The notes under the pieces are model-generated. The model made no database searches, had not been told where the DNA came from, and was given only the letters and a program-made list of their open reading frames with translations. The position numbers were made by a program, and so were the translations under genes. A stretch of DNA of 48,804 nt from an uncultured Bacteroidia bacterium (GTDB lineage Bacteria > Bacteroidota > Bacteroidia > Bacteroidales > UBA932): the NCBI GenBank assembly GCA_902779765.1, contig CACZCQ010000016.1:1-48804 (forward strand). Direction: 5' to 3'. Shown here one piece after another: positions 16,747 to 35,951 of the stretch. Each line of letters starts with the position of its first letter. Position 1 is the stretch's first letter.

Positions 16747-16749
16747 GGC

Positions 16750-17520
16750 ATGCTGTCCCTCCACTCATTCCACTTGTTCCTGCTTGTCATGGCCTTGATA
16801 GCCGTCGTCGTGTTTATCTGCCTGTTCTATGTAGATGCCGGATACGGCAAGTTCTACCAGCCCAAATGGGGGCCGTCTGTCGGCAACAGGCTCGGGTGGA
16901 TACTGATGGAAGCGCCTGTCTTCATAGCGATGCTTCTGCTCTGGTGGTTCTCTGACAGGAAGACGGATCCGGTACGCCTGGTATTCCTCTTACTCTTCGA
17001 GCTGCATTATTTCCACCGCTCTTTCATATTCCCGCTCCAGATCCGTGGCCGTAGCCGTATGCCTCTGAGCATCATCGTGATGGGGGCTTTGTTCAATACC
17101 CTCAATGCATTGATGCAGGGCGGGTGGATATTCTATCTGTCGCTGGCCGACCGTTATCCTTTGAGCTGGCTGGCTAGTCTCCCGTTCATACTGGGAACAG
17201 CTCTATTCCTGACCGGTATGTCCGTGAACATCGGTTCCGATTCGATAATCCGCAATCTCAGGGAGCCGGGTGATACCGCCCACTACTTGCCGAAAGGAGG
17301 AATGTTCCGTTACGTGACCAGTGCCAACTATTTCGGGGAATTCGTCGAATGGGTGGGCTTCGCCGTCCTGACTTGGTCCTGGGCCGGTGCCGTATTCGCT
17401 CTCTGGACATTCGCTAACCTGGCCCCCAGGGCTTCCAGGATATATGATATGTATGCCCGTGAGTTCCCGGATGAGCTGGATACGGAGAAGACGAAAAGAA
17501 TGATTCCATTTATCTTCTGA
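16750..17520 (+). CDS. Steroid 5-alpha-reductase family membrane protein
   Basis: The 256-residue polytopic membrane protein matches the 3-oxo-5-alpha-steroid 4-dehydrogenase family along its length. It has an N-terminal YGKFYQPKWG block (32-41), HYFHRSFIFPLQIRG (86-100), the signature SANYFGEFVEWVGFA (191-205) and a C-terminus ending KRMIPFIF like eukaryotic SRD5A enzymes. The family reduces the delta-4 double bond of 3-oxo-steroids with NADPH to give the 5-alpha (allo) configuration. I prefer ATG 16750; ATG 16714 adds 12 residues. It begins a five-gene operon with an Old Yellow Enzyme and two SDRs, a gene set recalling the gut Bacteroidota genes for allo- and iso-bile acids. The substrate is inferred. 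Confidence 0.88.
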   Translation: MLSLHSFHLFLLVMALIAVVVFICLFYVDAGYGKFYQPKWGPSVGNRLGWILMEAPVFIAMLLLWWFSDRKTDPVRLVFLLLFELHYFHRSFIFPLQIRGRSRMPLSIIVMGALFNTLNALMQGGWIFYLSLADRYPLSWLASLPFILGTALFLTGMSVNIGSDSIIRNLREPGDTAHYLPKGGMFRYVTSANYFGEFVEWVGFAVLTWSWAGAVFALWTFANLAPRASRIYDMYAREFPDELDTEKTKRMIPFIF

Positions 17521-17524
17521 AAAG

Positions 17525-18766
17525 ATGCCGATAGATTCCACCATATTCACCCCTGTCAGGATAGGACCTGTGACACTAAGGAACAGGATCATCCGTTCGG
17601 CCGCATTCGAAAACATGGCATATGGGAACAAACCTTCCCGGGACCTGATGGATTATCACGTCGCCGTGGCACGCGGTGGAGTCGGAATGACCACTCTGGC
17701 CTATGCTTCCGTGAACCGCAGCGGACTTTCATTCGACGGACAGCTCTGGATGCGTGAGGAGATAGTCCCGGATCTGCGGAAGATAACGGATGCGATACAC
17801 GCCGAGGGCGCGAAGGCTTCCATCCAGCTTGGCCACTGCGGCAACATGACACATCGCTCCACTTGCGGATGCATGCCCGTAGGGGCCTCCGGAGGCTTCA
17901 ACCTCTATTCTCCGACCTTCGTGAGGAAGATGCGGGAGGATGAGATCGAATCCCTTGTCGACGACTTCGGCCGTTCGGTCGAGCTTGCCCGGAAGGCCGG
18001 ATTCGACTGCGTGGAGATCCACGCCGGGCATGGATACCTGATCAGCCAGTTCCTTTCACCTTATACGAACCACCGCAGGGACCGTTTCGGCGGATCGCTC
18101 CAGAACAGGATGCGGGTGATGCAGATGGTCATACGGCGGGTGATGGAGGTTGCCGGGGATGACATGGGAGTGATAGTGAAGATGAATATGCACGACGGTT
18201 TCAGACGCGGGATGCAGCGGGACGAATGCTTGGAGGTTGCCAGGGAACTTGAAAGGCTGGGAGTGCATGCGATAGTCCTTTCGGCTGGTTTCGTCAGCAA
18301 GGCCCCGATGCAGGTGATGCGCGGTGCCATGCCCATACGTACGCTGGCACATTACATGGATCCACGGAAGTTTTGGTGGCTCAAGGCCATGGTCAGGGTG
18401 TTCGGACGGATGATCATTCCGACCGTACCATATAAGGATACATATTTCCTGGAGGATGCCAGGGAGTTCCGGAAGGCGGTCAGCCTGCCCCTGATATATG
18501 TCGGAGGCATGGTTTCCCGTTCTTCCATCGAGGAGGTGCTGGGATCGGGCTTCGCTGCAGTCCAGATGGCAAGGGCCCTTGTCCGTGATACGGATTTTGT
18601 CAACAAGCTGCAAAGCGGTGAAGTCGAGAGAAGCGAGTGCAGGCATTCCAATTATTGCATCGGCCGTATGTACACGCTGGAAATGAGATGCAATCACTGC
18701 GCAGGCGAACTTCCCGCTTCGCTGAGAAAGGAGATAGATAAAGCCGAGAAACGATGGTCGCGCTGA
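17525..18766 (+). CDS. Old Yellow Enzyme family NADH:flavin oxidoreductase
   Basis: The 413-residue protein is a single FMN TIM barrel of the OYE family, with RNRIIRSAAFEN, the catalytic-region HAGHGYLISQFLSP (166-179), the RFGGSLQNR block and the phosphate-binding GG at 327-328. It lacks the C-terminal FAD/NAD module of the larger BaiCD/2,4-dienoyl-CoA reductase type, so it needs an outside electron donor or uses NAD(P)H directly. Four cysteines near the end (C372, C378, C389, C392) could bind a metal or Fe-S cluster but do not match the usual spacing. It follows the 5-alpha-reductase gene by four bases and overlaps the SDR gene by 13. In the bile-acid reading it would be the 5-beta or delta-reductase partner. 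The substrate is unproven. Confidence 0.85.
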   Translation: MPIDSTIFTPVRIGPVTLRNRIIRSAAFENMAYGNKPSRDLMDYHVAVARGGVGMTTLAYASVNRSGLSFDGQLWMREEIVPDLRKITDAIHAEGAKASIQLGHCGNMTHRSTCGCMPVGASGGFNLYSPTFVRKMREDEIESLVDDFGRSVELARKAGFDCVEIHAGHGYLISQFLSPYTNHRRDRFGGSLQNRMRVMQMVIRRVMEVAGDDMGVIVKMNMHDGFRRGMQRDECLEVARELERLGVHAIVLSAGFVSKAPMQVMRGAMPIRTLAHYMDPRKFWWLKAMVRVFGRMIIPTVPYKDTYFLEDAREFRKAVSLPLIYVGGMVSRSSIEEVLGSGFAAVQMARALVRDTDFVNKLQSGEVERSECRHSNYCIGRMYTLEMRCNHCAGELPASLRKEIDKAEKRWSR

Positions 18767-19518
18767 TAACGGGAGGCAGTTCCGGAATGGGTCTGGAATT
18801 CGCCCGCGGACTGGTAGCCCGCGGGTATGACCTGATACTCGTAAGCAACAGGGAAGATGACCTGCAGGTAGCTGCATCCGGCCTCGGATCCGAACTCCCG
18901 GTCAAGGTCCGCACCCGTTTCCAGGACCTGGCGCAGCCACGTGCTGCAGATGACCTACATGAATGGTGCGTTGGAGAAGGTATCATCCCAGACGTGCTTG
19001 TCAACGATGCCGGGATGTTCTTTTTCAAGGAGCTGGGTGTTGAGGACTTGGACCGTGTCCAGGCCATGCTGGACCTGCATATCACCACGGTTACCAGACT
19101 ATGCCTTCTTTTCGGCCAGGATATGAAGGAACGGGGAAACGGTTATATACTTAACGTGTCGTCGATGGCGGCGAGGATTCCTGCTCCCGGGATAACCGTA
19201 TATTCCGCTACGAAGGCGTATCTGAAGAGTTTCGGCCGTTCACTTTCCTATGAGTTTGAACCCTATGGCGTCAGGATGACTACCGTGTGTCCTGCTGCTA
19301 TCGCTACGCCCCTTTACAGGCTTGATCCCAAATGGATGAAGCTGGGAGTGCGCATCGGACTCATCCGCACTCCCGGGTGGCTTGCAAAGCGCGCTCTGAA
19401 GGCGCTGTTCCGCGGGCGCCGTGTACTGAGTCCGGCTTTCATGAATATCTGGCTCCCACCTTTGATCGCAGCCCTTCCGGCCCCAATTGTCTCAAGGATA
19501 TGGAAAAGGTTAAGGTAA
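18754..19518 (+). CDS. SDR family NAD(P)-dependent dehydrogenase (first)
   Basis: The 254-residue short-chain dehydrogenase has the cofactor loop TGGSSGMG (6-13), NDAG (84-87) in place of NNAG, and the catalytic S137, Y150 and K154. The C-terminal 60 residues are hydrophobic with several basic turns, as in membrane-associated 17-beta-HSD/DltE-like members. It overlaps the OYE gene by 13 bases and the next gene by 19, so translation is coupled. Next to a 5-alpha-reductase and an OYE, the natural hypothesis is a hydroxysteroid dehydrogenase acting at C-3 of a bile acid or steroid. Position and stereochemistry cannot be judged from the sequence. Confidence 0.88.
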   Translation: MVALITGGSSGMGLEFARGLVARGYDLILVSNREDDLQVAASGLGSELPVKVRTRFQDLAQPRAADDLHEWCVGEGIIPDVLVNDAGMFFFKELGVEDLDRVQAMLDLHITTVTRLCLLFGQDMKERGNGYILNVSSMAARIPAPGITVYSATKAYLKSFGRSLSYEFEPYGVRMTTVCPAAIATPLYRLDPKWMKLGVRIGLIRTPGWLAKRALKALFRGRRVLSPAFMNIWLPPLIAALPAPIVSRIWKRLR

Positions 19519-20426
19519 CTCTCCTGGCATTGTTGGCGGCAGGGGTCCTTCCGTTGTCGGCGCAGCGCATCGAATTGCTCCCGTACGGGGATTTTGAGCA
19601 CTGGACGACCCGTAACATCAAGGAGTCCGCGATACTCGGAGGGGAAGTCAAGACGCTGTACACCCTTGGCCCCCTGGGCAATACTCCATGGGCATCATCC
19701 AATGCTCACGCTAAGGTCTCCGGTATTACCAAGACAAGCCTGTCCGTAGAGCCTGACAATGGGCCGAGCGGACGCTGCGTGAAGCTTTCGACCGTATTCG
19801 CTTCCTGCCGCGTCGCAGGCCTTGTGGATATCGAGGTCCTGGCCACGGGATCGTTATATTGGGGCAGAATGTTCGAACCCATCACGGGTGTCAGGAATCC
19901 TTATTCCAACATGGACTGGGGAATTCCGTTCACTTCTCATCCTTCCGCCCTCCTGGTGGATTACAGGGCCTTCCTGCCTGCAACCGGCAAGCTGGTCAAA
20001 GGTACTACTTTCAACAAGAAAGAATTCCCGGGAGAGGATCCGTGCCAGGTACTGCTCCTGCTCCAGCGCCGCTGGGAGGATCCGGACGGGACAATCCACG
20101 CCGAGCGCGTAGGAACCGCCGTCCTGCGGATCGGAACTACCACGTCCGGCTGGGTGAAGGACAAGCGTATACCAGTCGTGTACGGTGACGCCCGCAAACA
20201 GCCCGGTTACCGTCCTTATATGGATCTCGTGAAAGGGGAGAAGACTCTGTATGCAGTCAACAGCAAGGGGAAACGAGTCCCTGTCCGGGAGGAAGGTTGG
20301 GCCTCATCCGATGCCTCCTGCACCCACGCGGTGCTGCAGATCTCGTCCGGTTCCCAGGGTGGTTTTACAGGCGCCCCCGGCAACACGTTATGGGTGGACA
20401 ATCTGAGGATGGAATATGCAAGGTAG
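19500..20426 (+). CDS. Secreted PCMD domain protein
   Basis: The 308-residue product starts at ATG 19500 with a signal peptide (MEKVKVTLLALLAAG, cut after LSAQ). A longer in-frame extension upstream lies inside the SDR gene and is rejected. The mature part opens with LLPYGDFEHWTTR and ends with a TLWVDNLRMEY block, both typical of the PCMD (putative carbohydrate metabolism) family common in Bacteroidota. PCMD proteins form jelly-roll-like beta structures and are thought to bind carbohydrates. It overlaps both neighbouring SDR genes, by 19 and 11 bases, so it is part of the reductase operon. A secreted binding protein amid cytoplasmic and membrane redox enzymes is odd. It may capture a steroid conjugate or glycoside, which is speculation. 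Confidence 0.78.
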   Translation: MEKVKVTLLALLAAGVLPLSAQRIELLPYGDFEHWTTRNIKESAILGGEVKTLYTLGPLGNTPWASSNAHAKVSGITKTSLSVEPDNGPSGRCVKLSTVFASCRVAGLVDIEVLATGSLYWGRMFEPITGVRNPYSNMDWGIPFTSHPSALLVDYRAFLPATGKLVKGTTFNKKEFPGEDPCQVLLLLQRRWEDPDGTIHAERVGTAVLRIGTTTSGWVKDKRIPVVYGDARKQPGYRPYMDLVKGEKTLYAVNSKGKRVPVREEGWASSDASCTHAVLQISSGSQGGFTGAPGNTLWVDNLRMEYAR

Positions 20427-21222
20427 GATCATCATAACCGGCGCCTCCGGGTCGATAGGGTCCGTGGTGGCAAGGGAGATGGCTGCTGCCGGCCGTCCGG
20501 TCGTGATGGCCTGCCGCAACCCGCGGAAGGCAGAATCGGTCCGCGATGCCATCCTTGCAGACCTGCCGGGAGCCGAGATAGGCATACTGCCGCTCGACCT
20601 TGCATCCTTGGACTCCGTCCGTGCCTTCGTGGAGAGCATCGGGACTGAGCCTTTCGAAGCCTTGTTCAATAATGCCGGGACTATCAGCAAGAGTTATTCC
20701 TTGACTTCAGATGGGCTCGAGAACACATTTGCTGTCAATTACTTCGGGCCGGTGCTTCTGACCCGATTGCTGATTCCCAGAATGGCTCCCGACGCTCGGA
20801 TCGTGAATATGGTTTCATTGACTTGCAGGTACGTATCAGTAGATGAAGGCTCCCTCCTTCCGGCCCCCGGCGACTTCTCCCAGCTAGGAACATATGCCAG
20901 GGCGAAACTGGCTATGCTGAGGTTCTCTATGGAGCTTGCCAGGCGCTGTCCTCAACTCCGTATAAACCTTGCCGATCCTGGAATCGTGAACTCCAATATG
21001 ATATCCATGGGGCGATGGTTCGACCCTCTGGCTGATATCCTGTTCCGCCCCTTCTGCAAATCTCCTCAAAAAGGAGCCGGACCGGCCCTTGCAGCGCTTT
21101 CCTCACCGGAACGTAACCGCTACTTCGTCGGGAAACGCTGTACCGCCATACCATCCAGGTTCCAGGACCCTTATCTTGACCTCCGCCTTTGGAATGAGAC
21201 AGAGAAGATCATACAATTGTAA
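20416..21222 (+). CDS. SDR family NAD(P)-dependent dehydrogenase (second)
   Basis: The 268-residue short-chain dehydrogenase resembles the retinol dehydrogenase/protochlorophyllide reductase branch: cofactor loop TGASGSIG (8-15), NNAG (85-88), S134, Y160 and K164. Between the serine and tyrosine is an insertion with Pro and Gly (about 141-157) that is usual for this branch. It overlaps the PCMD gene by 11 bases and ends the tightly packed operon; the esterase follows after 12 bases. It may oxidise or reduce a hydroxyl of the same lipophilic substrate handled by the 5-alpha-reductase and OYE. This is inference from context. Confidence 0.88.
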   Translation: MQGRIIITGASGSIGSVVAREMAAAGRPVVMACRNPRKAESVRDAILADLPGAEIGILPLDLASLDSVRAFVESIGTEPFEALFNNAGTISKSYSLTSDGLENTFAVNYFGPVLLTRLLIPRMAPDARIVNMVSLTCRYVSVDEGSLLPAPGDFSQLGTYARAKLAMLRFSMELARRCPQLRINLADPGIVNSNMISMGRWFDPLADILFRPFCKSPQKGAGPALAALSSPERNRYFVGKRCTAIPSRFQDPYLDLRLWNETEKIIQL

Positions 21223-22419: not shown

Positions 22420-23235
22420 ATGAAAAAGATATTATTCATTGCGGCAGTCCTGGCTTTCGCCGTTTCTTGCTCGCAGGGCAAAGGCCCGAAGATCCTTGTA
22501 CTTTACTATTCGCAGAGTTCGACGACCGAGGCGGTCGCCCGGGAGATCAGCAACCGTCTGGGAGCTGATATGGAAAAGATCGTACCTGTAACTCCCTACG
22601 ACGGAACATATCAGGAGACCATCGAGCGTTCACGCAAGGAGAGGGAAGAAGGTATCCTGCCTGAACTGCAGCCCTTGAAATCGGATGTCCGGTCATACGA
22701 CATCATATTCCTGGGCTATCCGATCTGGTACGGTACTTATGCGGTACCCATGTCGACCCTTCTGAATACCGTGGATTTCTCCGGCAAGAAGGTCATTCCG
22801 TTCTGTACTTTCGGCAGCGGTGGCCTTGAATCCAGCACCAGGGACCTTAGTGAGAAACTTACAGGTGCAGAAATACTTCCCGGCTACGGTGTCAGGTCCG
22901 CGCGTATCGATGCGGCACCTGCCGAGATCGACCGTTTCCTGAAACAGGGAGGATTCATCGAGGGCGAAGTCGAAAAGTATGAAGAATTCCCGGAGATGCA
23001 TCAGGCGTCCGATGAGGAAGCAGCGATATTCGATGCAGCCGTAGGCGGCTACCCGATGATCAACGCAAAGGCCGAAAAGGCGTCGTCCCGTACAGTCTCC
23101 GGTGGAACGGAATATCTTTTCGAGGCAAGGGATGTCCCGAGAAACCCCGAACAGCAAGATATGGCTGGGACAATGAAGGTCTACGTGCTGGCAATGGATG
23201 GCCAGGACCCGGTGTTCACCCGGGTCGTCAGGTAA
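22420..23235 (+). CDS. Flavodoxin-fold lipoprotein
   Basis: The 271-residue protein has a lipoprotein signal (Ala-Val-Ser-Cys) and a flavodoxin domain. The FMN phosphate loop is YYSQSSTTEAVA (about 29-40), the first ring contact GYPIWYGTYAVPM, and the second loop CTFGSGG. An extra C-terminal domain of about 80 residues (190-271) has no family I can name. Flavodoxins carry one or two electrons on FMN. Anchoring one outside the cytoplasm is less common, although lipoprotein flavodoxins occur in Bacteroidota. It follows the esterase by 24 bases and may supply or accept electrons for the reductases upstream. That link is only positional. Confidence 0.85.
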   Translation: MKKILFIAAVLAFAVSCSQGKGPKILVLYYSQSSTTEAVAREISNRLGADMEKIVPVTPYDGTYQETIERSRKEREEGILPELQPLKSDVRSYDIIFLGYPIWYGTYAVPMSTLLNTVDFSGKKVIPFCTFGSGGLESSTRDLSEKLTGAEILPGYGVRSARIDAAPAEIDRFLKQGGFIEGEVEKYEEFPEMHQASDEEAAIFDAAVGGYPMINAKAEKASSRTVSGGTEYLFEARDVPRNPEQQDMAGTMKVYVLAMDGQDPVFTRVVR

Positions 23236-23250
23236 TGTCCAACTGCTTGA

Positions 23251-24186
23251 TCAACAGTATTTCCTGCCGGGGAAGAAGCGGTTTACCTTGGTACGGTAGC
23301 GCTCGAATTCGGGATATTTGCCTGAGCTGATCTCCTCTGCCAGTGCGGAGCTGCCCTGGAACAGGACTATCAGCAGCAAGGCGCCTATCACGCTCCAGTT
23401 GATGACACCGGTCCCGGCTCCGATCGAGAAAATGTAGAAAGACACCCAGATACTCTGTTCGGCGAAATAATTCGGATGCCGGCTCCTGCTCCAGAGACCA
23501 ACTGTGTTGAATCCTCTGTTGTAAGGTGCCGGCAGTTCTTCAAGTTTCTGACCGGAACCGATCATCGCCCATTTCCTGGTCTGGAAAGCCCATTGCTGTT
23601 CGTCGGCTATGGTTTCGTATATGATGAAACCAAGCATGAGTACAGCTGCTAGGCAGTCTACCCAGCCGAAAGGTACCGTGGAATTCATCGAAACGAGCGC
23701 CGGGAATGTGGTCATAAGGATCAGGGCGTTCTGGTAAATGGAGATGAACAGCAGGTCGAAGAGCATCCATGCCCAGCGCTTGCGGAAGGCGGGACCTGAG
23801 CGGACGATGCTCCAGCGGTAGTCTTCGTTCCCTTCCCAGAATTTCAGCCTGTAGGCTCCCTTGCGGGCGAAATTGAATGTCAGGCGCATGCCCCATAAGG
23901 TGGCGAGCACCGCCATGACCACGAGCCTTGTTGCCATTCCACCCCTGGCTGCTATGATCCAGGTATAAGCGATAGGGAGGATGCTCCAGAGCTTGTCCAT
24001 CTGGCTGTTGTTCCCGGTGATCTCACCGACTATGAAACAGTAGGCGGCACTGCAGGCGGCAATGATGCCGATAATCTTGAGGGTGTGCAACTGATTGGCA
24101 TCAAGGGCTGGTCCCAGGAAGAAATACATCAGTGGACACACGATGACGGACAGACAGATCAGTGTGCCCATCAGGGGGATGTTCAT
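23251..24186 (-). CDS. DUF1295 / steroid-reductase-fold membrane protein
   Basis: The 311-residue polytopic protein matches the DUF1295 family, distantly related to steroid 5-alpha-reductases and isoprenylcysteine methyltransferases. Conserved blocks are the N-terminal MDKLWSILP, RLTFNFARKGAY, and the C-terminal WSRSRHPNYFAEQ, followed by a tail with EEISSGKYPEFERYR. I use ATG 24186; a GTG at 24201 would add five residues. It is convergent with the flavodoxin gene, with 15 bases between the stops, and has its own upstream region. It is the second reductase-fold membrane protein in the window. Whether it acts on steroids, fatty chains or something else is not known. Confidence 0.85.
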   Translation of the reverse strand: MNIPLMGTLICLSVIVCPLMYFFLGPALDANQLHTLKIIGIIAACSAAYCFIVGEITGNNSQMDKLWSILPIAYTWIIAARGGMATRLVVMAVLATLWGMRLTFNFARKGAYRLKFWEGNEDYRWSIVRSGPAFRKRWAWMLFDLLFISIYQNALILMTTFPALVSMNSTVPFGWVDCLAAVLMLGFIIYETIADEQQWAFQTRKWAMIGSGQKLEELPAPYNRGFNTVGLWSRSRHPNYFAEQSIWVSFYIFSIGAGTGVINWSVIGALLLIVLFQGSSALAEEISSGKYPEFERYRTKVNRFFPGRKYC

Positions 24187-24351
24187 CGTCTTGTTGTTCA
24201 CGTCGAATCTGTTTTAACTGCAAAATACGCATTATTATCCAATAATCATTTGCTTTTTAGTCTAAATCATTGTCCATTAGATACCTTTTATTTGCAATAA
24301 TGGAGGAAACGGGGTAAATTAGTAGAATAATACTGGAACTATAACTGCATT

Positions 24352-26424
24352 ATGAAATATCCGTTTATATCACTTGCCATCTGCATGGCAGTCATCGCCG
24401 TTTCTTCCTGCGGGAACAGATGGCAGGAAGAAACCAGGGACGGTTACAATCTAGTTACACAGACGAAGGGACCTTCTTTGGGTTACGGTTCCGATTCAGG
24501 AATCCGGATATTGAACAAGGGAGGACGCGCCTTCAAGGACATGAACCGGAACGGTGTCATCGATCCCTATGAGGACTGGCGTCTGCCGATGGACCGGCGT
24601 ATCTCCGACCTCGTCGGACAGATGACGCTGGAGGAAAAGGTAGGCTTGATGTTCCATCCCAACATCGCTGTCCGGGAGAGCGGAGAAATCAAGTATGATT
24701 TCACCCCGGAAGAGAAAGAGGCCATGAAAAAGGCCGAGGAAGAGAGATATGCCGGACCTATCGGCCCCGGCGGGCAGAATGCAGGTGCGATGGCAATGGG
24801 ACAGATGAGACGTGCTGCCACCGCGAAATCCTATATCGAAGAGAAGAATTTCCGTTGCATCCTCAACAATGGTGTAGCCGCACCTGATAAATTCGCGAAC
24901 TGGTCCAATGGCATGCAGAAGATAGCCGAAGGCTCACGGCTGGCCATCCCCATCATGTTCTCTTCCGATCCGCGCCATAGCGCCAAACTCGGGGGCCACG
25001 TGAGCGGCACCCAATACTTCTCCCATATCACAAACGGTGAAGGGCAGGTTGGTATTACGGCAGGTGGCGATCCTGAGATGATGCGCCGCTTCGGAGAGAT
25101 AATGGCTGATGAATATCGTGCAGTCGGCCTCCACATGTTCCTCGGTCCGCAGATCGATGTCATCACTGAGCCGCGCTGGAGCAGGAATATGGGCTGTTTC
25201 TCCGAATCTGCCGAACTGACTGCGGAAATGACTGCAGCCCTTATCGAAGGCGCCCAGGGAGACAATGTGGGCCCGGGAAAGATACTGGTCCATCTGAAGC
25301 ACTGGCCCGGAAGCGGCCCACATCTTGGCGGCAGCGGGCGCTGGCTGGTATATCCGGGAGACAACCAGGAATACCATTACATTCCCTGGAAGAAGGGCAT
25401 AGAGAAGGGCGCTCTTGCAGCGATGGGCTATTACAGCGGAACCTACTATGACTCCCTGAATGTCAATTATTCCTACCATATGTCCACCGAGGTCCTCTAC
25501 GGTGAGCTTGGTTTCAAGGGTGCCATCTGCACCGACTGGGGTGTGGTCGGCAACGGACCGCTCAAGCCTTCCCTCCAGGGCAAGACTTCCGTCAAGGACA
25601 ATATGGAGATGATCATCAACGCCGGTGTGGACCAGATGGGCTCCGAGACAAGGCCCGAACTTGTGCTCGAACTCGTGAAAGAGGGCAGGGTCTCCGAGGA
25701 AAGGATAAACCAGGCTGCTTCCAGGATCCTGCAGTGGCACTTCATACTCGGCCTGTTCGAGAATCCCTACGTCGATCCGCAGGCCGCGCTCAAGACTCTG
25801 CAGGCTCCCGAATATGAGGCTTTCGGACTTGAGTGCCAAAGGGTTTCCAACGTCCTTCTGACGAATGACGGCTCATTGCCTGCGAAGGAAGGCGTCAAGA
25901 TATTCGTGGATGGTATAGCACCTGAAGTGGCAAAGGAATACGGCACCTTGGTGGATAATCCCGCAGACGCCGACCTGATCATTTATCGGACAACTTCTTC
26001 CCTGGACAGGAGGGGAGGTTTCGGACCGCCTCAGGCGCCTCAGCCTAACAGGCCTCGGAATGCCCAGGCTCCCAGGACAAATCCCTCCGCTCCACGTGAA
26101 GTGGACATAGATTTCCCTGCAGAGAAGTTCAGCCGTCTGAAGGAACTTGCCTCTTACGGCAAGCCGGTGGTTGCGGACATCAATCCCACAGGATCCTCGC
26201 TTGTCATAACCCCCGGACTGAAGTCTCTTCCGAACGCCATGATCCTCTCTTTCGATCCGACTGACGCCGCGGTGATGGATGTAGTCTTCGGTCGCCACAA
26301 TCCCAAGAGCAAGCTTCCGTTCGAGATTCCTTCATCGATGGATGCCGTCAGGGCGCAAAAGGAGGATGTTCCCTTCGATTCCCCAAATCCTTCATTTGAG
26401 TTCGGTTTCGGATTGAGTTATTGA
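24352..26424 (+). CDS. GH3-family beta-glucosidase-like lipoprotein
   Basis: The 690-residue protein has a lipoprotein signal (Val-Ser-Ser-Cys), a GH3 TIM barrel and the alpha/beta sandwich domain. The Lys-His motif is in LKHWPGSG and the nucleophile is D395 in GAICTDWG. The protein stops directly after the FEFGFGLSY motif, so it has no fibronectin-III domain, which follows this motif in many GH3 beta-glucosidases. A Pro/Arg/Asn-rich stretch (about 555-582) is inserted into the second domain. It probably removes terminal beta-glucose, xylose or similar residues at the surface or in the periplasm. The stop at 26424 is one base before the hypB start, so the two genes appear translationally linked. 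Confidence 0.9.
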   Translation: MKYPFISLAICMAVIAVSSCGNRWQEETRDGYNLVTQTKGPSLGYGSDSGIRILNKGGRAFKDMNRNGVIDPYEDWRLPMDRRISDLVGQMTLEEKVGLMFHPNIAVRESGEIKYDFTPEEKEAMKKAEEERYAGPIGPGGQNAGAMAMGQMRRAATAKSYIEEKNFRCILNNGVAAPDKFANWSNGMQKIAEGSRLAIPIMFSSDPRHSAKLGGHVSGTQYFSHITNGEGQVGITAGGDPEMMRRFGEIMADEYRAVGLHMFLGPQIDVITEPRWSRNMGCFSESAELTAEMTAALIEGAQGDNVGPGKILVHLKHWPGSGPHLGGSGRWLVYPGDNQEYHYIPWKKGIEKGALAAMGYYSGTYYDSLNVNYSYHMSTEVLYGELGFKGAICTDWGVVGNGPLKPSLQGKTSVKDNMEMIINAGVDQMGSETRPELVLELVKEGRVSEERINQAASRILQWHFILGLFENPYVDPQAALKTLQAPEYEAFGLECQRVSNVLLTNDGSLPAKEGVKIFVDGIAPEVAKEYGTLVDNPADADLIIYRTTSSLDRRGGFGPPQAPQPNRPRNAQAPRTNPSAPREVDIDFPAEKFSRLKELASYGKPVVADINPTGSSLVITPGLKSLPNAMILSFDPTDAAVMDVVFGRHNPKSKLPFEIPSSMDAVRAQKEDVPFDSPNPSFEFGFGLSY

Positions 26425-26425
26425 T

Positions 26426-27100
26426 ATGGACGGAGTCAAGATCATCGAGATAAAGAAAAGCGTGTTCGCGGAGAATGAGAAAGACGCGGACGAGCTCAGG
26501 AAAGAATTGAAAGACAAGGGAGTATATCTGCTGAACCTGATGTCTTCTCCGGGAAGCGGCAAGACCACCACGCTTATCCGGACTATTAACCTTCTCAAGG
26601 ACCGGATCCGCATTGCCGTGATGGAAGCTGACATCGACAGCGATGTCGACGCCATAAAGATCAAGGAGGCTACCGGCATCCAGTCCATACAGCTTCACAC
26701 AGGCGGGATGTGCCACCTGGATGCCGAGATGACGAGGCAGGGGCTGGACGGACTGGACCTTGAAGACATCGACCTGGTCGTCCTGGAAAACGTCGGGAAC
26801 CTGGTCTGCCCTGCGGAGTTCGACACAGGAAGCGTCCGCAATGCGATGATCCTGTCCGTTCCCGAGGGTGATGACAAGCCGCTGAAATATCCTTTGATGT
26901 TTTCGGTCTGCGACGTGGTCGTCGTCAACAAGATCGATGTCCTGCCGTTCTTCGACTTTGACATTGAGAAGTGCAGGGAATATATCCACATGCGTAATCC
27001 GAAGGCCAGGGTAATTCCTGTCTGTGCAAAGACAGGGGAGGGTGTCGATGCTTTCGCCGAATGGATCCTGGAAGAAGTGTCTGAATGGAAAACACAATGA
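26426..27100 (+). CDS. hypB: HypB-family nickel-insertion GTPase
   Basis: The 224-residue GTPase has the P-loop SSPGSGKTT (40-48) and the NKID specificity motif (168-171). The dimer-interface metal site is complete: C96 and H97 in GMCHLDA and C128 in NLVCPAEFD, with the same 32-residue spacing as E. coli HypB. The N-terminal CxxCGC high-affinity nickel site of E. coli HypB and the His-rich tract of rhizobial HypB are absent. HypB with HypA loads Ni2+ into [NiFe]-hydrogenase, or into urease in Helicobacter. Here hypA lies two genes downstream, but no hydrogenase or hypCDEF is in the window. It starts one base after the GH3 stop and is followed after 23 bases by the large oxidoreductase. Confidence 0.93.
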   Translation: MDGVKIIEIKKSVFAENEKDADELRKELKDKGVYLLNLMSSPGSGKTTTLIRTINLLKDRIRIAVMEADIDSDVDAIKIKEATGIQSIQLHTGGMCHLDAEMTRQGLDGLDLEDIDLVVLENVGNLVCPAEFDTGSVRNAMILSVPEGDDKPLKYPLMFSVCDVVVVNKIDVLPFFDFDIEKCREYIHMRNPKARVIPVCAKTGEGVDAFAEWILEEVSEWKTQ

Positions 27101-27123
27101 TAAATAACCAATAACCAGTCAAT

Positions 27124-29952
27124 ATGCCTGAGATGTCCAAAAAGTTTGTCCCCAAGCACTTTGGTGACAAGAATCCAAATCCCAAGCTGATCAGATTCGT
27201 CCGCCACGTAACGGACCGCATTCCCGGAAAGGTGAAGATGACCACCGAAGCCCCTGAGTACTGGGGCCTTGCCTGCATCTTCGAGGACGAGATGGATGCC
27301 GTGACCCGCGAGGCCTCCCTGGACCTTCTCCTGGACATGCTCCCAGGGAATTTCTTCAAGGTCCGCAAGCATCACACGTATGCCTGTCTCCACGGTATGA
27401 ATGCGGAAAAGCATTATACTCCGGACGACAAGTCCTTCGACGACCTGCTTGACAAGCTGGCTTATTTCGGGATGCTCGAGTACGACTACGGAGACAAATA
27501 CACCAAGGACGGTCCCGTTCCCGGGACGACATACGAAAGGGAAGACCGGATCTACTGGGTGCCCATGTTCGTTCCCGGTTCCGCCGAATACACGAACATG
27601 AATACCGGCCTTATGGACAGGCATCCCGAGCTGGCGATGTTCTTTGAGCGGATGACGTTCCTGCCTCTCGAGAAAGTCACTCCGATGGTACCTATGGGAG
27701 GCTCAGGAATAGGCATGCACGTGATCCCGGTCGAGAAGGCTATCTCAATGGAGAACCAGTCGGTCGACATCGAGCACATATCATATTGGCTCAAGAGATA
27801 TGAAGGCCATATCGGAGTGGGAATCTGTTCCTGCCGTTACGGCCGCAAGAAACTGGATGAGGGTTGCGCCGACGACTACCGCGACTGGTGCATCGGCGTC
27901 GGTGACATGGCGGACTATCTCAGGGAGACCGGCCGCGGTCACGACATAACATACGAAGAGGCCATGGCCATCCTGAAGAAGGCAGAGGACCATGGTTTCG
28001 TCCACCAGATCACTAACATTGACGGGGAAGGGAAGATATTCGCCATCTGCAATTGCAATGTCAAGATCTGCAATGCGCTTCGTACCTCGCAGCTGTTCAA
28101 CACTCCCAATCTGTCGCGCAGCGCCTATGTGGCCGAAGTGGATCCTAAGAACTGCGTCGCCTGCGGCCGCTGTGTCGAATACTGTCCGGCCGGTGCAGTC
28201 AAGCTCGGTCAGAAGCTCTGTACCAAGAACGGACCGGTGGAATATCCAAAGCAGGAGCTACCTGACGCATCGGCTTGGGGCAAGCACAAATGGACTGAGG
28301 ATTATCGTGACAGGAACCGTATAAACTGCTATCCGACAGGTACTTCTCCATGCAAGACCGCATGCCCGGCCCATATCGCCGTCCAGGGTTACCTGAAGAA
28401 GGCTGCAGAAGGCAAGTACACCGAGGCCCTTGAACTCATCAAGCGGGAGAACCCCTTCCCGGCAGTCTGCGGAAGGATATGCAACCGCCGGTGCGAAGAT
28501 GCCTGTACGCGCGGGACCATCGACCAGCCGATTGCCATCGATGCCGTCAAGAAGTTCATTGCCGAGCAGGACCTGAAGGCCGGGACCCGTTTTGTCCCGG
28601 AGGTCAATATCGTCTCCAATGTCCAGGACCGCTGGGAAGAGAAGATCGCCATTATCGGAGGAGGTCCGGCCGGCCTGAGCTGCGCCAACTATCTGGCGAC
28701 CATGGGTTACCTTCCCACTGTGTTCGAGAAGAACGAAGAGCCCGGAGGAATGCTGCGTTATGGTATCCCTTCATACAAGCTGGAGAAGGATGTTATCGCA
28801 GCCGAGATCGACATAATGAAGGAGATCGGGGTAGAAATACGTACCGGTGTCGAGGTTGGGAAGGACGTTACCATCCAGCAGCTCCGTGAGGAGGGCTATA
28901 AGGCATTCTACGTGGCCATCGGCTGCCAGGGCGGCCGCCTGCCCGGTATTCCCGGTGAGACCCTTCCAGGCACTGCCACGGCAATCGATTTCCTGCACGG
29001 TGCCAACACCGGCAAGGTAAAGGTTTCCGGCAAGGTCGTGGTGGTCGGCGGAGGTAATGTCGCCATCGACGCCGCCCGAGTAGCAAAGCGAAGCGGAGCT
29101 TCAGATGTCACTATGCTTTCGCTTGAAACCGAGGATATTATGCCCGCATCGCCTGAAGAGAGAACTGAGGCACGTGAAGACGGAATCGTGCTGAAACCTG
29201 GTTGGGGGCCGAAGGAAGTCCTCGGTTCAGACAAGGTCGAGGGGATCGTTTTCAAGAAATGTACTTCCGTATTCGACGGGAACCATCGTTTCGCTCCCGA
29301 ATATGACGAGAACGAGCTCATTACCCTTGATGCTGACATGGTTATATTCGCCATCGGCCAGACGGTCATCCTCAATGACCTGCTCAAGGACACGAAGGTC
29401 GAATTCTTCCGTGGTGTCTATCCTGTCGCAGACAAACTTACCTACCAGACAGCGGAGGAAGACATATTCGTAGGAGGGGATGTTTTCACAGGTCCAAAGT
29501 TCGCCATCGATGCCATTGCGGCCGGAAAGGAAGCGGCCGAATCGCTTCACCGGTACGTGCAGCACGGTCATATGACAATAGGCCGCAACCGCCGCGATTT
29601 CATAGAGCTGGACAAGGGTAACATAGAGGTCGGATCCTATGACAATTCATCCCGTCAGGATCCGGGAGTCACTCTGCTCAAGAATCCTTTCCGCGAGTAC
29701 CATAACACCCTCACCGAAGAGCAGGTACGCAGGGAAACCGCCCGCTGCCTCAGTTGCGGTGCATCTGTCGTGGATGAGAACAAGTGCATCGGATGCGGAA
29801 TCTGCACGACGAAGTGCGGTTTCGATGCAATCCATCTGCACAGGGTGCATCCGGAGGCCAGCCACATGGTCACTTCGGAGGATAAGTTCAGCGGAATCCT
29901 GCCCTACATGCTCAAGCGTGCCGGAAAGATTCTCGTCTCCAAAAAGAAATAA
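27124..29952 (+). CDS. Multi-cluster Fe-S/FAD oxidoreductase, GltD/NfnB-like
   Basis: The 942-residue cytoplasmic protein has several parts. Residues 1 to about 340 are a novel-looking cysteine domain with C235-x-C237, C248, C256 and C309-x-C311/C316. A 4Fe-4S ferredoxin motif follows at C344, C347, C350 and C354. Then comes a GltD-type Fe-S segment (C402, C410, C414, C449, C453, C457, C461), FAD binding (GGGPAG 512-517), NAD(P) binding (GGGN 642-645) and a C-terminal cysteine region (C875, C878, then C888, C891, C894, C898). The middle is the glutamate-synthase-beta/NfnB module that moves electrons between NAD(P)H and ferredoxin-like partners. There is no glutamate synthase large subunit nearby. 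Its place between hypB and hypA suggests it feeds or drains electrons for a nickel-dependent partner; that is inference. Confidence 0.85.
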   Translation: MPEMSKKFVPKHFGDKNPNPKLIRFVRHVTDRIPGKVKMTTEAPEYWGLACIFEDEMDAVTREASLDLLLDMLPGNFFKVRKHHTYACLHGMNAEKHYTPDDKSFDDLLDKLAYFGMLEYDYGDKYTKDGPVPGTTYEREDRIYWVPMFVPGSAEYTNMNTGLMDRHPELAMFFERMTFLPLEKVTPMVPMGGSGIGMHVIPVEKAISMENQSVDIEHISYWLKRYEGHIGVGICSCRYGRKKLDEGCADDYRDWCIGVGDMADYLRETGRGHDITYEEAMAILKKAEDHGFVHQITNIDGEGKIFAICNCNVKICNALRTSQLFNTPNLSRSAYVAEVDPKNCVACGRCVEYCPAGAVKLGQKLCTKNGPVEYPKQELPDASAWGKHKWTEDYRDRNRINCYPTGTSPCKTACPAHIAVQGYLKKAAEGKYTEALELIKRENPFPAVCGRICNRRCEDACTRGTIDQPIAIDAVKKFIAEQDLKAGTRFVPEVNIVSNVQDRWEEKIAIIGGGPAGLSCANYLATMGYLPTVFEKNEEPGGMLRYGIPSYKLEKDVIAAEIDIMKEIGVEIRTGVEVGKDVTIQQLREEGYKAFYVAIGCQGGRLPGIPGETLPGTATAIDFLHGANTGKVKVSGKVVVVGGGNVAIDAARVAKRSGASDVTMLSLETEDIMPASPEERTEAREDGIVLKPGWGPKEVLGSDKVEGIVFKKCTSVFDGNHRFAPEYDENELITLDADMVIFAIGQTVILNDLLKDTKVEFFRGVYPVADKLTYQTAEEDIFVGGDVFTGPKFAIDAIAAGKEAAESLHRYVQHGHMTIGRNRRDFIELDKGNIEVGSYDNSSRQDPGVTLLKNPFREYHNTLTEEQVRRETARCLSCGASVVDENKCIGCGICTTKCGFDAIHLHRVHPEASHMVTSEDKFSGILPYMLKRAGKILVSKKK

Positions 29953-29963
29953 CCGCAGCCGGA

Positions 29964-30314
29964 ATGCACGAATTGGGTATAGTCTTCTACATCATCCGCG
30001 ACGTCAAGCAGGCGGCCGGGGAAAACAATGTCGACCATGTCTCGGCAGTGGTGATGAACATCGGGGAAGTCTCGACGGTCATCCCCGAATACCTTGCAGA
30101 CTGCTGGAGATGGGCTGCTGACAAGGAGCCGCTGCTTGAAGGATGCGAGTTGAAGGTCAATATCATTCCGGCGGTCACCCATTGCGATGATTGCGGGAAG
30201 GATTACGAGACTGTCAAATATGGGAAGACCTGCCCGTTCTGCAGCAGCGGGAATACCTTCCTCCTCCGTGGTAACGAGGTGGAAATAAAAGAAATAGAAG
30301 TATCAAACAATTAA
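29964..30314 (+). CDS. hypA: HypA-family nickel metallochaperone
   Basis: The 116-residue protein has the essential N-terminal nickel-binding Met-His-Glu (MHE) and the zinc site formed by C74-x2-C77 and C90-x2-C93. This is the full HypA pattern at the normal length of about 113-118. The segment IGEVSTVIPEYL matches the family consensus. HypA receives or delivers Ni2+ together with HypB. It follows the oxidoreductase by 11 bases and precedes a small membrane protein by 11 bases, so all are one transcription unit. No nickel enzyme of known type lies in the window, so its client is unknown and could be the DUF5692 protein or an enzyme elsewhere in the genome. Confidence 0.95.
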   Translation: MHELGIVFYIIRDVKQAAGENNVDHVSAVVMNIGEVSTVIPEYLADCWRWAADKEPLLEGCELKVNIIPAVTHCDDCGKDYETVKYGKTCPFCSSGNTFLLRGNEVEIKEIEVSNN

Positions 30315-30325
30315 AAGACAATCAT

Positions 30326-30682
30326 ATGGCTTGTTTTGTAGTCCCTCTTATCCAGGCTGTCGCGACAAGCGTGTACCGCAAGCGCAACATCCAGTCTGTC
30401 ACGAGTCCCGATGCATCGCCTTTCAAACGGCATCTCCCGTCACTCGAGAAGATGCTCTGGGGTGGAACGGTCATGCTTATCGTGGACCACATAATCAACG
30501 GAGAACTCACGTGGCGTTTCCCGTTCTTCACCGCCCTTGACCAGGCTGGCGGGGGAGCGGTAATGCTCAAGGAGATGCTGACCGTGGGTGTTCCGATGTC
30601 ACTTGCCCTGACTGCCTTATGGGCGGTATGGGCTGTTTTGGAATCCAGGAAGGAATCTATTCATATCCAAACTAATAACTAA
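30326..30682 (+). CDS. Small membrane protein of the hypAB/DUF5692 cluster
   Basis: The 118-residue protein has an N-terminal hydrophobic start, a basic loop with YRKRN and FKRHLPSLEK, a membrane segment at about residues 43-60 and another at about 88-106, and a polar tail. A DHIINGELTW stretch lies between the two segments. I know no named family. The spacing (11 bases from hypA and 11 to the DUF5692 gene) makes it a likely partner of the DUF5692 protein, perhaps a second subunit of one membrane complex. That assignment is positional only. Confidence 0.8.
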   Translation: MACFVVPLIQAVATSVYRKRNIQSVTSPDASPFKRHLPSLEKMLWGGTVMLIVDHIINGELTWRFPFFTALDQAGGGAVMLKEMLTVGVPMSLALTALWAVWAVLESRKESIHIQTNN

Positions 30683-30693
30683 AATCTAGAGTT

Positions 30694-31785
30694 ATGTTTT
30701 TCCAAGTGTATGGGGCTGATGCCCTTGCCCAATGGGGGATGCTGCTGGTCGTCCTTGTCGGCCTGATCCTCCTTAATGAATTCGCACGCCGCACCAAGGT
30801 CGGCGGTGCCATCATGTTCTTCGTCATTCCGGCCATCCTGACCGTCTATTTCGTGGCGATAGCCATAGGTGCCGCCAACGGATCGGAATGGGCGTTGAAG
30901 AACCAGACCCATCTGTACATGAACGGCTGGTTCCATTATGCCAAGCTCTACGCTGCCCTGACTGGCTGTATCGGCTTCATGATGATCAAGTACAAATGGG
31001 GGATCGGTGCAAAGCACTGGTTCAAGCCTTTCCCGTTCGTCATCGTGGCCATCAACATCCTCATCGCAGTGGCCTCCGACTTCGAATCCGCAATCAAAGG
31101 ATGGAACTGCTGGTGGCTCTCCAGCGAGGGAGTGTGGCTCTATGGAGGCTGGCACAACGTGATGAACGGTGTCGCCGGTATCCTGAATATCTTCTGTATG
31201 ACTGCATGGTGGAACGTCTATGCGTCCAAGGACAAGAAGGATATGATCTGGGCCGACATGACCTGGGTCTATATAGTCATCTACGATATCTGGAACTTCG
31301 CCTATACCTACAACTGCCTTCCTACCCATTCCTGGTACTGCGGTATCGCCCTGCTCCTTGCTCCGACCGTGGCAGCTATCTGCTGGAACCGTGGAGGATG
31401 GATCCAGAACCGCGCCAACACCCTTGCCATCTGGTGCATGTTCGCCCAGGTGTTCCCGCTCTTCCAGGAGACCTTCAAGGATGGCCGTCAGTGGTTCGAC
31501 TGGGCAGTCCTTCCTGTACAGTATCCCGAGGGCGTGACCACCATCGAGAAGATCTATGAAGTTGCAGGAGGCAATGCTGCGGCTGTAGGCACAACCGTTG
31601 ACAGCGTGGCAGCCAATCCTACGATGATGACGGTTATCAGCGCACTCGCCCTGGTCACCAACCTCATCGCTATCTGCTACATCATCAGCGTCTCCAAGAA
31701 ACGCCATATCAATCCTTACAAGGAGGATGTGTTCATCAACCAGAAGTACTACAAGGATTCGATGGCCCGCGCCGATGTCTCCTAG
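30694..31785 (+). CDS. DUF5692 family multi-pass membrane protein
   Basis: The 363-residue protein has about eight or nine membrane segments, is rich in Trp and Tyr, and fits the DUF5692 family of unknown function. Potential metal or proton ligands cluster in and next to membrane segments: H in NQTHLYMNGWFHYAK, H in GGWHNVMNG, acidic residues in MIWADMTWVYIVIYDIW, and Cys/His in NCLPTHSWYC. It ends the cluster before a strong terminator. Linked hypA and hypB make a nickel-dependent membrane protein, or a nickel or electron pathway across the membrane, worth considering. The function is not known, and nothing here proves metal binding. Confidence 0.82.
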   Translation: MFFQVYGADALAQWGMLLVVLVGLILLNEFARRTKVGGAIMFFVIPAILTVYFVAIAIGAANGSEWALKNQTHLYMNGWFHYAKLYAALTGCIGFMMIKYKWGIGAKHWFKPFPFVIVAINILIAVASDFESAIKGWNCWWLSSEGVWLYGGWHNVMNGVAGILNIFCMTAWWNVYASKDKKDMIWADMTWVYIVIYDIWNFAYTYNCLPTHSWYCGIALLLAPTVAAICWNRGGWIQNRANTLAIWCMFAQVFPLFQETFKDGRQWFDWAVLPVQYPEGVTTIEKIYEVAGGNAAAVGTTVDSVAANPTMMTVISALALVTNLIAICYIISVSKKRHINPYKEDVFINQKYYKDSMARADVS

Positions 31786-31805: not shown

Positions 31806-31840
31806 AAAGTCCCGGAAAACCAATGGTTTCCGGGACTTTT
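31806..31840. terminator. Strong bidirectional terminator
   Basis: A 13-bp perfect stem, AAAGTCCCGGAAA (31806-31818) with TTTCCGGGACTTT (31827-31839), lies between two convergent genes, 20 bases after the DUF5692 stop. T runs follow on both strands, so it can serve both directions. Confidence 0.9.
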
Positions 31841-34390: not shown

Positions 34391-35344
34391 CTAGCCGTTC
34401 AGGCGTTTGTCACGTATATTGAATATCGAAGAAACCGTCAGTCCGGAGATGATATGCCAGATACCCCACCAAGCCGTGATCACGAGCATGCCTCCGTGAG
34501 GAGGGAAGCCGGTGAAGATGGAAGTGCCCAGCAGGAGAACAAGCCCGAGGCCGGAATTCTGGATACCGGTTTCGATTGTCAGGGTCCTCCTGTCACGGAA
34601 GGGTACCTTGAAAGCCGTCCCCATTCCGAAACCGATGCACAGGGCCAGGAGATTATGGATGAATACGACAACGAATATGTATTTGACGCACTTGAGGAAG
34701 GCGTCTATGTTGCCTGTGAAGGAGAGGACCACCATTGCGATGAAGAACACGATGGATATCCATTGGAACGGTTTCTTGAGTTTGTCGGCGACCTTCGGAA
34801 GGAAATGCGAGCATAGGATGCCGAGGGTAAGGGGGATACCGAGCAATATGAATATGGTCTTGAAGACGTCCCAAAGCGGAATGACCAGGGTCGGCACCTC
34901 TGCGGCGACATTTGCAGTATGAAGGTACAGGTTACCCCACAGGAAGAAGTTCGCCGGAGTCATCAGGACGGCAAGGGCAGTGCTGATGGCAGTCAGTGAT
35001 ACGGACAGCTCGATGTTGGCCTTGGAAAGCGAGGACATGAAATTGGAGATGTTCCCACCCGGGCAGGATGCGACAAGTATCATTCCGAGTCCCATCATCG
35101 GGGAAATCCAGTTGCCCATCAGCACCGCCAGCAGGAAAGTGAATGCCGGCAGGAGGACGAGCTGGCAGAGCATGCCGAGCAGGACGGATTTGGGTTTCTT
35201 GAATACTTCGATGAAGATGTGTGGCTTGATGCCGAGAGCGACTCCGAACATTACGAAAGCAAGCACGATATTGATTGTGTTCATGCCCCCTGCATTCAAT
35301 GTTACATCGATCTTGTCAATGATGGCGGCTGTTTCTGGACTCAT
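34391..35344 (-). CDS. Bile acid:Na+ symporter (BASS) family transporter
   Basis: The 317-residue inner-membrane protein has nine or ten hydrophobic segments and the SBF/BASS signatures: GMILVASCPGGNISNFMSSL (88-107), which forms the first crossover, and ETGIQNSGLGLVL in the second half with the Na+-site Glu and Gln. I start it at MSPETAA (35344). An in-frame ATG at 35380 would add 12 residues and is less likely. BASS proteins carry bile acids, pantoate, pyruvate or other organic anions with Na+. The substrate here is not fixed by the sequence, but steroid-type reductases lie elsewhere in the window. It is the first gene of the unit with the acyltransferase and barrel genes. Confidence 0.9.
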   Translation of the reverse strand: MSPETAAIIDKIDVTLNAGGMNTINIVLAFVMFGVALGIKPHIFIEVFKKPKSVLLGMLCQLVLLPAFTFLLAVLMGNWISPMMGLGMILVASCPGGNISNFMSSLSKANIELSVSLTAISTALAVLMTPANFFLWGNLYLHTANVAAEVPTLVIPLWDVFKTIFILLGIPLTLGILCSHFLPKVADKLKKPFQWISIVFFIAMVVLSFTGNIDAFLKCVKYIFVVVFIHNLLALCIGFGMGTAFKVPFRDRRTLTIETGIQNSGLGLVLLLGTSIFTGFPPHGGMLVITAWWGIWHIISGLTVSSIFNIRDKRLNG

Positions 35345-35367
35345 AATTGCAAAAATAGCAATAATCG

Positions 35368-35397
35368 TTTGAATCTGCATTAAAATCAATATATTTG
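35368..35397 (+). promoter_or_regulatory. Bacteroidota-type promoter for the gene at 35418
   Basis: TTTG (35368-35371), an 18-base spacer and TATATTTG (35390-35397), an exact TAnnTTTG match. ATG 35418 follows 20 bases later. On the opposite strand, TATTTTTG (35357-35350) ends five bases before the symporter start and may be its -7 box. Confidence 0.7.
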
Positions 35398-35417
35398 CTT
35401 TAAATAACAAACCAGCG

Positions 35418-35951
35418 ATGAAACGGATCTTTATTATTTTTACCCTTATCTTCGTATCTTCCCTGGTGTTCGCCCAGAAATTCCAGGTTGGAGTGCGTGA
35501 TGAGATCTTCACTGTAGAAGAGGATGATAATGAATATGCCATTTTCGGCTACATGGACGAGGACGGAACGAGTGGCTACTATCTTGGGCTGGGCAGGCCG
35601 GATGTCATCCCGGGAGCGATAATCGCTTTCGACGTTTATCACGAAACATGTGTCTACCTGGGAGCTACCCTTGCCGAGTCCCTCGAGACCATGGGATACA
35701 TCGTCGCCCTTTTCAATCAGTCCATCGGTTCCAACAAGGTCTTTGACGCTCGTCTCGGGACCGGGGAGTTACTGAAGGACAAGGGCCAGGCAATCGGAAC
35801 CTTGGAAAGGAGGATCATTGTAGGGAAACATATCAGTTTCTCATTCAAGACTCCCTCTTACCTGACCGAGAGCTTCCTGAACAAGATTACCGCCAAATCC
35901 CTTCTTTCCGGATTGAAAACGTACATCAAGATCCACCCGAAACAAGCCTGA
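35418..35951 (+). CDS. Secreted protein of unknown function
   Basis: The 177-residue protein has a signal peptide ending SLVFAQ. The mature part is mixed alpha/beta, with acidic residues early (EEDDNEYAIFGYMDEDG), a Gly/Tyr stretch and a basic C-terminus. No cysteine pattern or membrane segment follows the signal, so it is expected in the periplasm. It begins a plus-strand pair with the lipoprotein TIM barrel, whose ATG follows three bases after this stop, so the two may work together. I do not recognise the family. Confidence 0.78.
   Translation: MKRIFIIFTLIFVSSLVFAQKFQVGVRDEIFTVEEDDNEYAIFGYMDEDGTSGYYLGLGRPDVIPGAIIAFDVYHETCVYLGATLAESLETMGYIVALFNQSIGSNKVFDARLGTGELLKDKGQAIGTLERRIIVGKHISFSFKTPSYLTESFLNKITAKSLLSGLKTYIKIHPKQA

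Follow-up and report, generated by a model that had tools for sequence, protein, structure and literature searches.

The window analysed here, a stretch of 48,804 nucleotides that makes up the whole of one contig (GenBank CACZCQ010000016.1, C16) of a 2.48-Mb assembly from a gut-type Bacteroidales with a completeness of 97.75%, carries a compact cluster in which hypB and hypA enclose a gene for a protein of 942 amino acids (aa) with iron-sulfur (Fe-S) and FAD domains that resembles the putative isoprene reductase IsrA. HypA and HypB are nickel-delivery proteins whose usual use is in the building of hydrogenases. In our view it is rather probable that they here constitute a private nickel-insertion pair for an IsrA-like reductase of carbon-carbon double bonds (C=C), which would act as an electron sink. 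We infer the nickel in the IsrA-like protein, the C=C reduction and the roles of the two membrane proteins encoded downstream from the findings set out below.

The five-gene module and its relatives

Profile searches identify six consecutive genes on the plus strand, encoding a GH3 glycosidase, HypB, the IsrA-like protein, HypA, a protein of 118 aa and a DUF5692 protein, and the intergenic distances calculated from their coordinates (Table 1) are, in this order, 1, 23, 11, 11 and 11 bp. The tight gene order ending at a terminator that an initial annotation of the window had described is thus borne out (gaps of 1-23 bp). The five genes from hypB to DUF5692, which we consider as the module, are separated by 11-23 bp and followed by a terminator-like hairpin; such sites are not in excess in this region, with 5 observed against a mean of 6.2 in shuffles.

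A pattern scan of a species-genome collection listed 597 stretches, among them at least 437 that code for a relative, and the best 80 of these are the related loci considered here. Their titles name Bacteroidales, Bacteroidia or Paludibacteraceae, many of them also goats, sheep, deer, buffalo or rumen collections (we read "RUG" in the titles as rumen), and they are 85-94% identical to the window protein. hypB adjoins isrA in 73 of the 74 loci with at least 900 bp upstream, and hypA directly follows isrA in all 75 loci with at least 600 bp downstream. In the 56 loci whose sequence extends 2.5 kb or more past hypA, DUF5692 starts less than 1 kb from hypA in 52 and the small membrane protein is present in 49; in one of the four remaining isr loci, DUF5692 is found 7.8 kb away. 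No other neighbouring gene occurs in more than 6 of the 80 loci, the clusters seen at 7-9 loci being reverse-strand frames over the module itself.

The GH3 gene, which had been counted as part of the set, does not share this association and was rejected as a member. In 10 of 12 same-genus genomes the DNA match to isrA begins at window positions 26423-26444, that is, at hypB and not at GH3, and a GH3 relative is present in only 1 of the 80 loci, where it is 23% identical and lies on the opposite strand, well away from the module.

Two genomes (G334 and G362, loci L148 and L152) keep all five genes in a rearranged layout, with DUF5692 reversed and divergent from isrA, isrA-hypA forward, and the small gene and hypB side by side on the reverse strand. 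In addition, a record labelled as a Subdoligranulum variabile plasmid (Bacillota) contains hypB-isrA-hypA-DUF5692, with an IsrA that is 61% identical and no match for the small gene. The association thus outlives rearrangement and, if the label is right, a change of phylum.

Within the closest contig (L002), the DUF5692 gene (window 30694-31785, L002 5520-6611) is 99% identical as protein and 90% as DNA, compared with 80-94% and 74-83%, respectively, for the other four genes, a near-identity that may reflect either unusually strong conservation or local recombination. Misbinning of the contig is not supported: the module is mostly 73-80% identical at the DNA level to same-genus genomes, and other genes of the window give longer matches of about 65-80%.

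The IsrA-like protein and its N-domain

The 942-aa protein consists of an unannotated N-domain with seven invariant Cys, a Fer4 domain, an FAD/NAD(P)H half (Fer4_20 and Pyr_redox_2) and a C-terminal Fer4 domain. Residues 1-331 have no sequence match in Pfam, NCBIfam or the PDB, and the structure model of the N-domain, which is of low confidence (predicted local distance difference test, pLDDT, 54.8), has no Foldseek match at E<=0.001. The seven Cys (C235, C237, C248, C256, C309, C311 and C316) are invariant in 80 of 80 loci.

IsrA is a 901-aa protein of Acetobacterium wieringae, strongly induced by isoprene, in which an N-domain of some 270 aa that matches no known domain is followed by dihydropyrimidine dehydrogenase domain II, an FAD/NAD(P)H domain and a C-terminal Fer4 (Kronen et al. 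2023, PMC10134865). The same paper proposes that the nickel is destined for IsrA, possibly for a six-cysteine site with two CxC motifs, C180/182 and C254/256 (PMC10134865). In the window protein, the two CxC motifs (235/237 and 309/311) are 74 residues apart and the next Fer4 motif (C344-C354) follows at an offset of 55. Both values equal those of IsrA (C180/182, C254/256; Fer4 at 289-300), the comparison being one of the residue numbers given in PMC10134865, not of sequence. By architecture and cysteine spacing, the protein would thus be an IsrA-type reductase (clade 9 of Kronen et al.).

The FAD half matches, by sequence, the solved Nfn, dihydropyrimidine dehydrogenase and glutamate synthase small subunits. 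One could therefore propose that the protein is an Nfn-type electron-bifurcating NAD(P)H:ferredoxin oxidoreductase without any organic C=C substrate, and bifurcation has indeed been discussed for IsrA (PMC10134865). The induction of IsrA by isoprene reported in the same paper speaks against this proposal. The Nfn-type matches span approximately residues 390-880 and none of them covers the seven-Cys N-domain. To our knowledge, neither a large unannotated N-domain nor a dedicated HypAB pair is a feature of Nfn, and we regard a purely Nfn-like role as quite unlikely.

HypAB, co-occurrence and the proposed nickel client

The metal ligands of both chaperones are in place, as had been stated initially. 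HypB has its P-loop together with C96, H97 and C128, and HypA has M1-H2-E3 and the zinc Cys C74/C77/C90/C93. C96, H97 and C128 of HypB and H2, E3 and the four zinc Cys of HypA are invariant in 77 of 77 loci in which the gene was found (of 80); residue 1 of HypA is V in 13 loci, with a GTG start. HypA scores 70.4 bits with TIGR00100, which is below the cut-off of 88.1 of that NCBIfam equivalog model, and the single HypA match in the window's own genome is the gene described here.

The initial annotation had also stated that a hydrogenase and hypCDEF are absent. This holds for the parts searched across the window's own genome, where neither the NiFe-hydrogenase large subunit nor HypD has a match; hypC, hypE and hypF were not searched genome-wide. 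A NiFe-hydrogenase with hypCDEF elsewhere in the assembly, which would have told against the initial reading, was not found within the same limits. The urease alpha subunit and the carbon monoxide dehydrogenase (CODH)/prismane family likewise have no match in this genome, in searches that did not include lactate racemase or nickel importers. Among 199 genomes of the family, the NiFe-hydrogenase large subunit exceeds the cut-off in none, with 3 weak sub-threshold matches.

In the same 199 genomes we counted isrA by N-domain matches at E<1e-100 and hypA by scores over its cut-off. Each is present in 15 genomes and both occur together in 14 (P of about 2e-19, ignoring ancestry), which upholds the earlier suggestion that nickel chaperones without a NiFe-hydrogenase are tied to the 942-aa redox protein. 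The position of HypAB beside isrA could still be incidental and their true client an ordinary nickel enzyme, such as lactate racemase, with its gene elsewhere in the genome, since lactate racemase and other nickel enzymes lay outside the genome search and a gene may be missing at the given completeness. Against this stand the lack of matches for the NiFe large subunit, HypD, urease alpha and CODH/prismane in the genome itself, the tracking of isrA by hypA in 14 of 15 genomes and the position of hypA after isrA in every one of the 75 loci, so that we consider this explanation very unlikely.

DUF5692 had been put forward as the candidate client of the chaperones, and HypAB might indeed deliver nickel to it as a membrane metalloprotein or nickel transporter. 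Its close and frequent linkage to hypA (52 of 56 loci) would fit such a role, as would the many polar residues, e.g. H81, D129, D198 and H212, among the 84 positions that are invariant in eight aligned DUF5692 sequences, that of the window included. The distribution of the genes points elsewhere. DUF5692 is present in 17 of the family genomes, 14 of them with isrA, and the other three (G212, G161 and G225) have it without detected isrA or hypA. In G161 and G225 the DUF5692 protein is full-length and 82-83% identical, and the roughly 9 kb upstream contain no isr or hyp gene; a further copy in G161 is truncated where its contig ends, and the copy of G212 lies at a contig start. A lone DUF5692, about 35% identical, is found on a Latilactobacillus curvatus plasmid record (CP117684, 5995-6924), with no hyp or isr match in 12.7 kb. 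Conversely, hypAB-isrA lacks a DUF5692 within 1 kb in 4 of 56 loci.

Two family genomes break the pairing of isrA and hypA. In the genome with isrA only (G339), isrA runs into the contig end. In the genome with hypA only (G190, 76% complete; locus L146, 2443-4555), hypA-hypB is followed by a free-standing IsrA N-domain protein of 360 aa, with two Fer4 domains and no FAD half, and this incomplete genome has no match for DUF5692 or full-length isrA. Taken together, these patterns indicate that hypA tracks isrA or its N-domain, and not DUF5692, and the free-standing protein beside hypA-hypB in G190 points to the N-domain as the client part. We therefore find it highly improbable that DUF5692 is the recipient of the nickel; the likely client is the IsrA-like protein.

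As for DUF5692 itself, its AlphaFold2 model shows nine long helices (pLDDT 67; predicted template modelling score, pTM, 0.69) and has, at this middling confidence, no Foldseek match at E<=0.001; its VIA list includes class C receptors and rhodopsins, inside the noise range. The small membrane protein has, by hydropathy, about three hydrophobic segments. That the two proteins handle a hydrophobic substrate or dock the reductase is a guess.

Weighing the nickel hypothesis

N-domain matches are more widespread than full-length isrA, being present in 23 of 393 genomes of the order, the window's genome and G710 included. Of the 28 matches, 19 were fetched with wider flanks, 8 with at most 1.5 kb per side, and the last is the window itself. 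Eighteen of the 19 are free-standing and come from 17 genomes; the remaining one is a full-length isrA (L196). No hypA or hypB match lies near any of the 18 free-standing copies (5.6-11 kb fetched; hypA elsewhere in these genomes was not tested), in a search that detected both genes in L196 and L146, and the eight further matches (L172-L175, L177-L180) have neither gene within their at most 1.5 kb per side. We aligned the 18 free-standing copies with L196, L146 and three IsrA-like N-domains, leaving out the eight with short flanks. All seven Cys are kept in all 18 free-standing relatives. Where the full-length IsrA-like proteins have N312 and K314, these relatives have additional Cys (in 18 of 18 and 17 of 18, respectively), as does the hypAB-linked L146 protein.

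Several observations weigh against the proposed nickel-dependent C=C reductase, and the first of these comes from the free-standing proteins. Since the seven Cys are invariant without nearby hypAB, the site does not by itself mark a nickel protein; judged from the alignment, it is probably an old Fe-S site. The P value of the co-occurrence ignores shared ancestry, the module being present in 3 of the 25 genera of the family sample. Full-length isrA is also rare in the order. Among the matches listed for 149 genomes it is found only in the window's genome, the others being mainly to the FAD half; the larger order sample contains one more, G710. Membership in the IsrA clade is assigned by architecture and cysteine spacing, compared with published residue numbers and not with the IsrA sequence. 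The IsrA homologues that are 47-49% identical belong to Acetobacterium strains, and several of these strains failed to reduce isoprene when tested, so that function is not simply transferable (PMC10134865). The available parts of the papers give no nickel measurement on IsrA. In the literature on isoprene reductase, biohydrogenation and rumen use we found no later biochemical study of IsrA.

An alternative that partly overlaps with our proposal is that HypAB serve IsrA with a metal or an assembly step other than catalytic nickel, for instance in building an unusual Fe-S cluster of the N-domain. The conservation of the seven Cys in free-standing relatives without nearby hypAB would be compatible with this, as would the N312 and K314 that full-length proteins have in place of the two additional Cys. 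The nickel ligands of the two chaperones, on the other hand, do not vary in any of the 77 loci in which the genes were found; this argues against a role without nickel, and we regard this alternative as unlikely.

The module is also patchy within the genus. In one draw, 12 of 20 other genomes match within isrA, and a thirteenth (G348) matches in the small gene and DUF5692 only, while in another draw DUF5692 is present in 0 of 18. In the phylum sample DUF5692 exceeds the cut-off in 1 of 296 genomes, the window's own, with one further sub-threshold match. No relatives were found in the viral collection, and no free-standing N-domain in the plasmid collection.

Table 1 Features of the IsrA-HypAB region of the window
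Feature	Coordinates	Strand	Basis and remarks
GH3 glycosidase	24352..26424	+	PF00933/PF01915; local neighbour, outside the conserved module
hypB, nickel GTPase without N-terminal metal-binding extension	26426..27100	+	TIGR00073, 238 bits (cut-off 121)
isrA-like reductase, 942 aa	27124..29952	+	Fer4 / Fer4_20 / Pyr_redox_2; proposed catalyst and recipient of the nickel
Seven-Cys site (coding region), corresponding to "cluster V" of IsrA	27826..28071	+	Aligned with IsrA-like proteins and free-standing relatives
hypA, nickel metallochaperone (MHE, two CxxC)	29964..30314	+	PF01155, over cut-off
Small membrane protein, 118 aa	30326..30682	+	No family in Pfam or NCBIfam; hydropathy; frequent, not universal component
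DUF5692, predicted nine-helix membrane protein, probably accessory	30694..31785	+	PF18948, 435 bits
Intrinsic terminator-like hairpin closing the cluster	31806..31839	+	Consensus match, 13 pairs

Upstream of the module, positions 16714-21222 encode a steroid 5-alpha-reductase family protein (PF02544), an Old Yellow Enzyme (OYE)-family reductase with similarity to BaiCD and two short-chain dehydrogenases, a set that we take to resemble the steroid- and bile-acid-reducing gene sets of the gut. In L002, a 91% identical 5-alpha-reductase homologue comes directly after DUF5692, the match starting 21 bp past its stop; as this linkage to the module is seen in 1 of 80 loci only, it remains a lead. The flanks (22420-24201 and 34391-35542) encode a flavodoxin-domain protein, a DUF1295 protein (reverse strand) and a bile-acid:sodium symporter family protein.

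Proposed activity and relation to known systems

According to the mechanism that we propose, HypB would bind Ni(II) and hand it to HypA in a GTP-dependent step, and HypA would load it into the IsrA-like protein; the most plausible position is the seven-cysteine Fe-S site of the N-domain or its vicinity. NAD(P)H would reduce the FAD half, and electrons would run through the 4Fe-4S clusters to the seven-cysteine site. The bond hydrogenated there would be an unactivated and probably conjugated C=C of a hydrophobic compound. Candidate substrates are isoprene- or terpenoid-like compounds, a conjugated fatty acid or steroid-like compounds. Hydrogenation of this kind would serve as an electron sink in the gut, and the small membrane protein and DUF5692 would have an auxiliary part in the membrane, where they might handle the hydrophobic substrate or dock it. 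One could speculate further that the module stands for a class of nickel enzymes not recognised before: an Fe-S flavoprotein, matured by HypAB and partnered in the membrane by DUF5692 and the small protein, that hydrogenates C=C bonds which are conjugated but unactivated. Many rumen-type Bacteroidales would then use it to dispose of hydrogen or electrons, with isoprenoids from plants, conjugated fatty acids or steroids as acceptors; in this full form the idea is tentative and we would not yet favour it.

In the rumen, C=C hydrogenation competes with methane formation for reducing power and shapes the fats of milk and meat. If the IsrA-like protein does hold nickel, the short list of nickel enzymes would grow by one and HypAB would gain a second dedicated client. 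As a portable cluster in at least 80 Bacteroidales contigs, many with titles that name ruminant hosts, the module would offer a direct gene target for asking which organisms hydrogenate C=C in the rumen.

The window can be compared with several known systems. With the FAD-FeS halves of NfnB, GltD and dihydropyrimidine dehydrogenase, the IsrA-like protein shares the Fer4_20 and Pyr_redox_2 half, whereas their matches stop short of the seven-Cys N-domain. With the HypA and HypB of NiFe-hydrogenase maturation, the chaperones share the families (PF01155 and TIGR00073), the nickel and zinc ligands and the GTPase P-loop; they differ in that their genome has no match for the NiFe large subunit or HypD and in that HypA falls below the equivalog cut-off.

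The closest likeness is to the isr system. The initial annotation had called the system undescribed, yet the association of isrA, hypA, hypB and DUF5692 has been in print in outline since 2023: for the neighbours of 988 clade-9 IsrA homologues, values of 0.73 for HypA, 0.56 for HypB and 0.40 for DUF5692 are given, and Bacteroidetes are named among the carriers (PMC10134865). Absent from the available part of that survey, and thus new as far as it goes, are the small protein as a frequent fifth part, the rearranged five-gene layout, the pairing of hypA-hypB with a free-standing N-domain, the family-level co-occurrence without NiFe-hydrogenase matches, and the caution that comes from N-domain relatives without nearby hypAB. 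Besides isrA, the five-gene isr operon of A. wieringae contains two hypA genes, hypB and a gene for a 4Fe-4S ferredoxin, and the genome around it lacks NiFe-hydrogenase as well as hypCDEF (PMC10134865). Compared with this operon (strains ISORED-2 and Y), the window has a reductase of similar size, about 900 aa, with an N-domain, the same CxC spacing of 74, the same Fer4 offset and a Fer4_20 and FAD/NAD(P)H half, adjoining hypA and hypB, and a genome without NiFe-hydrogenase match; it differs in having a single hypA and no separate ferredoxin gene within 24352-31785, and it adds DUF5692 and the small membrane protein in a Bacteroidales host.

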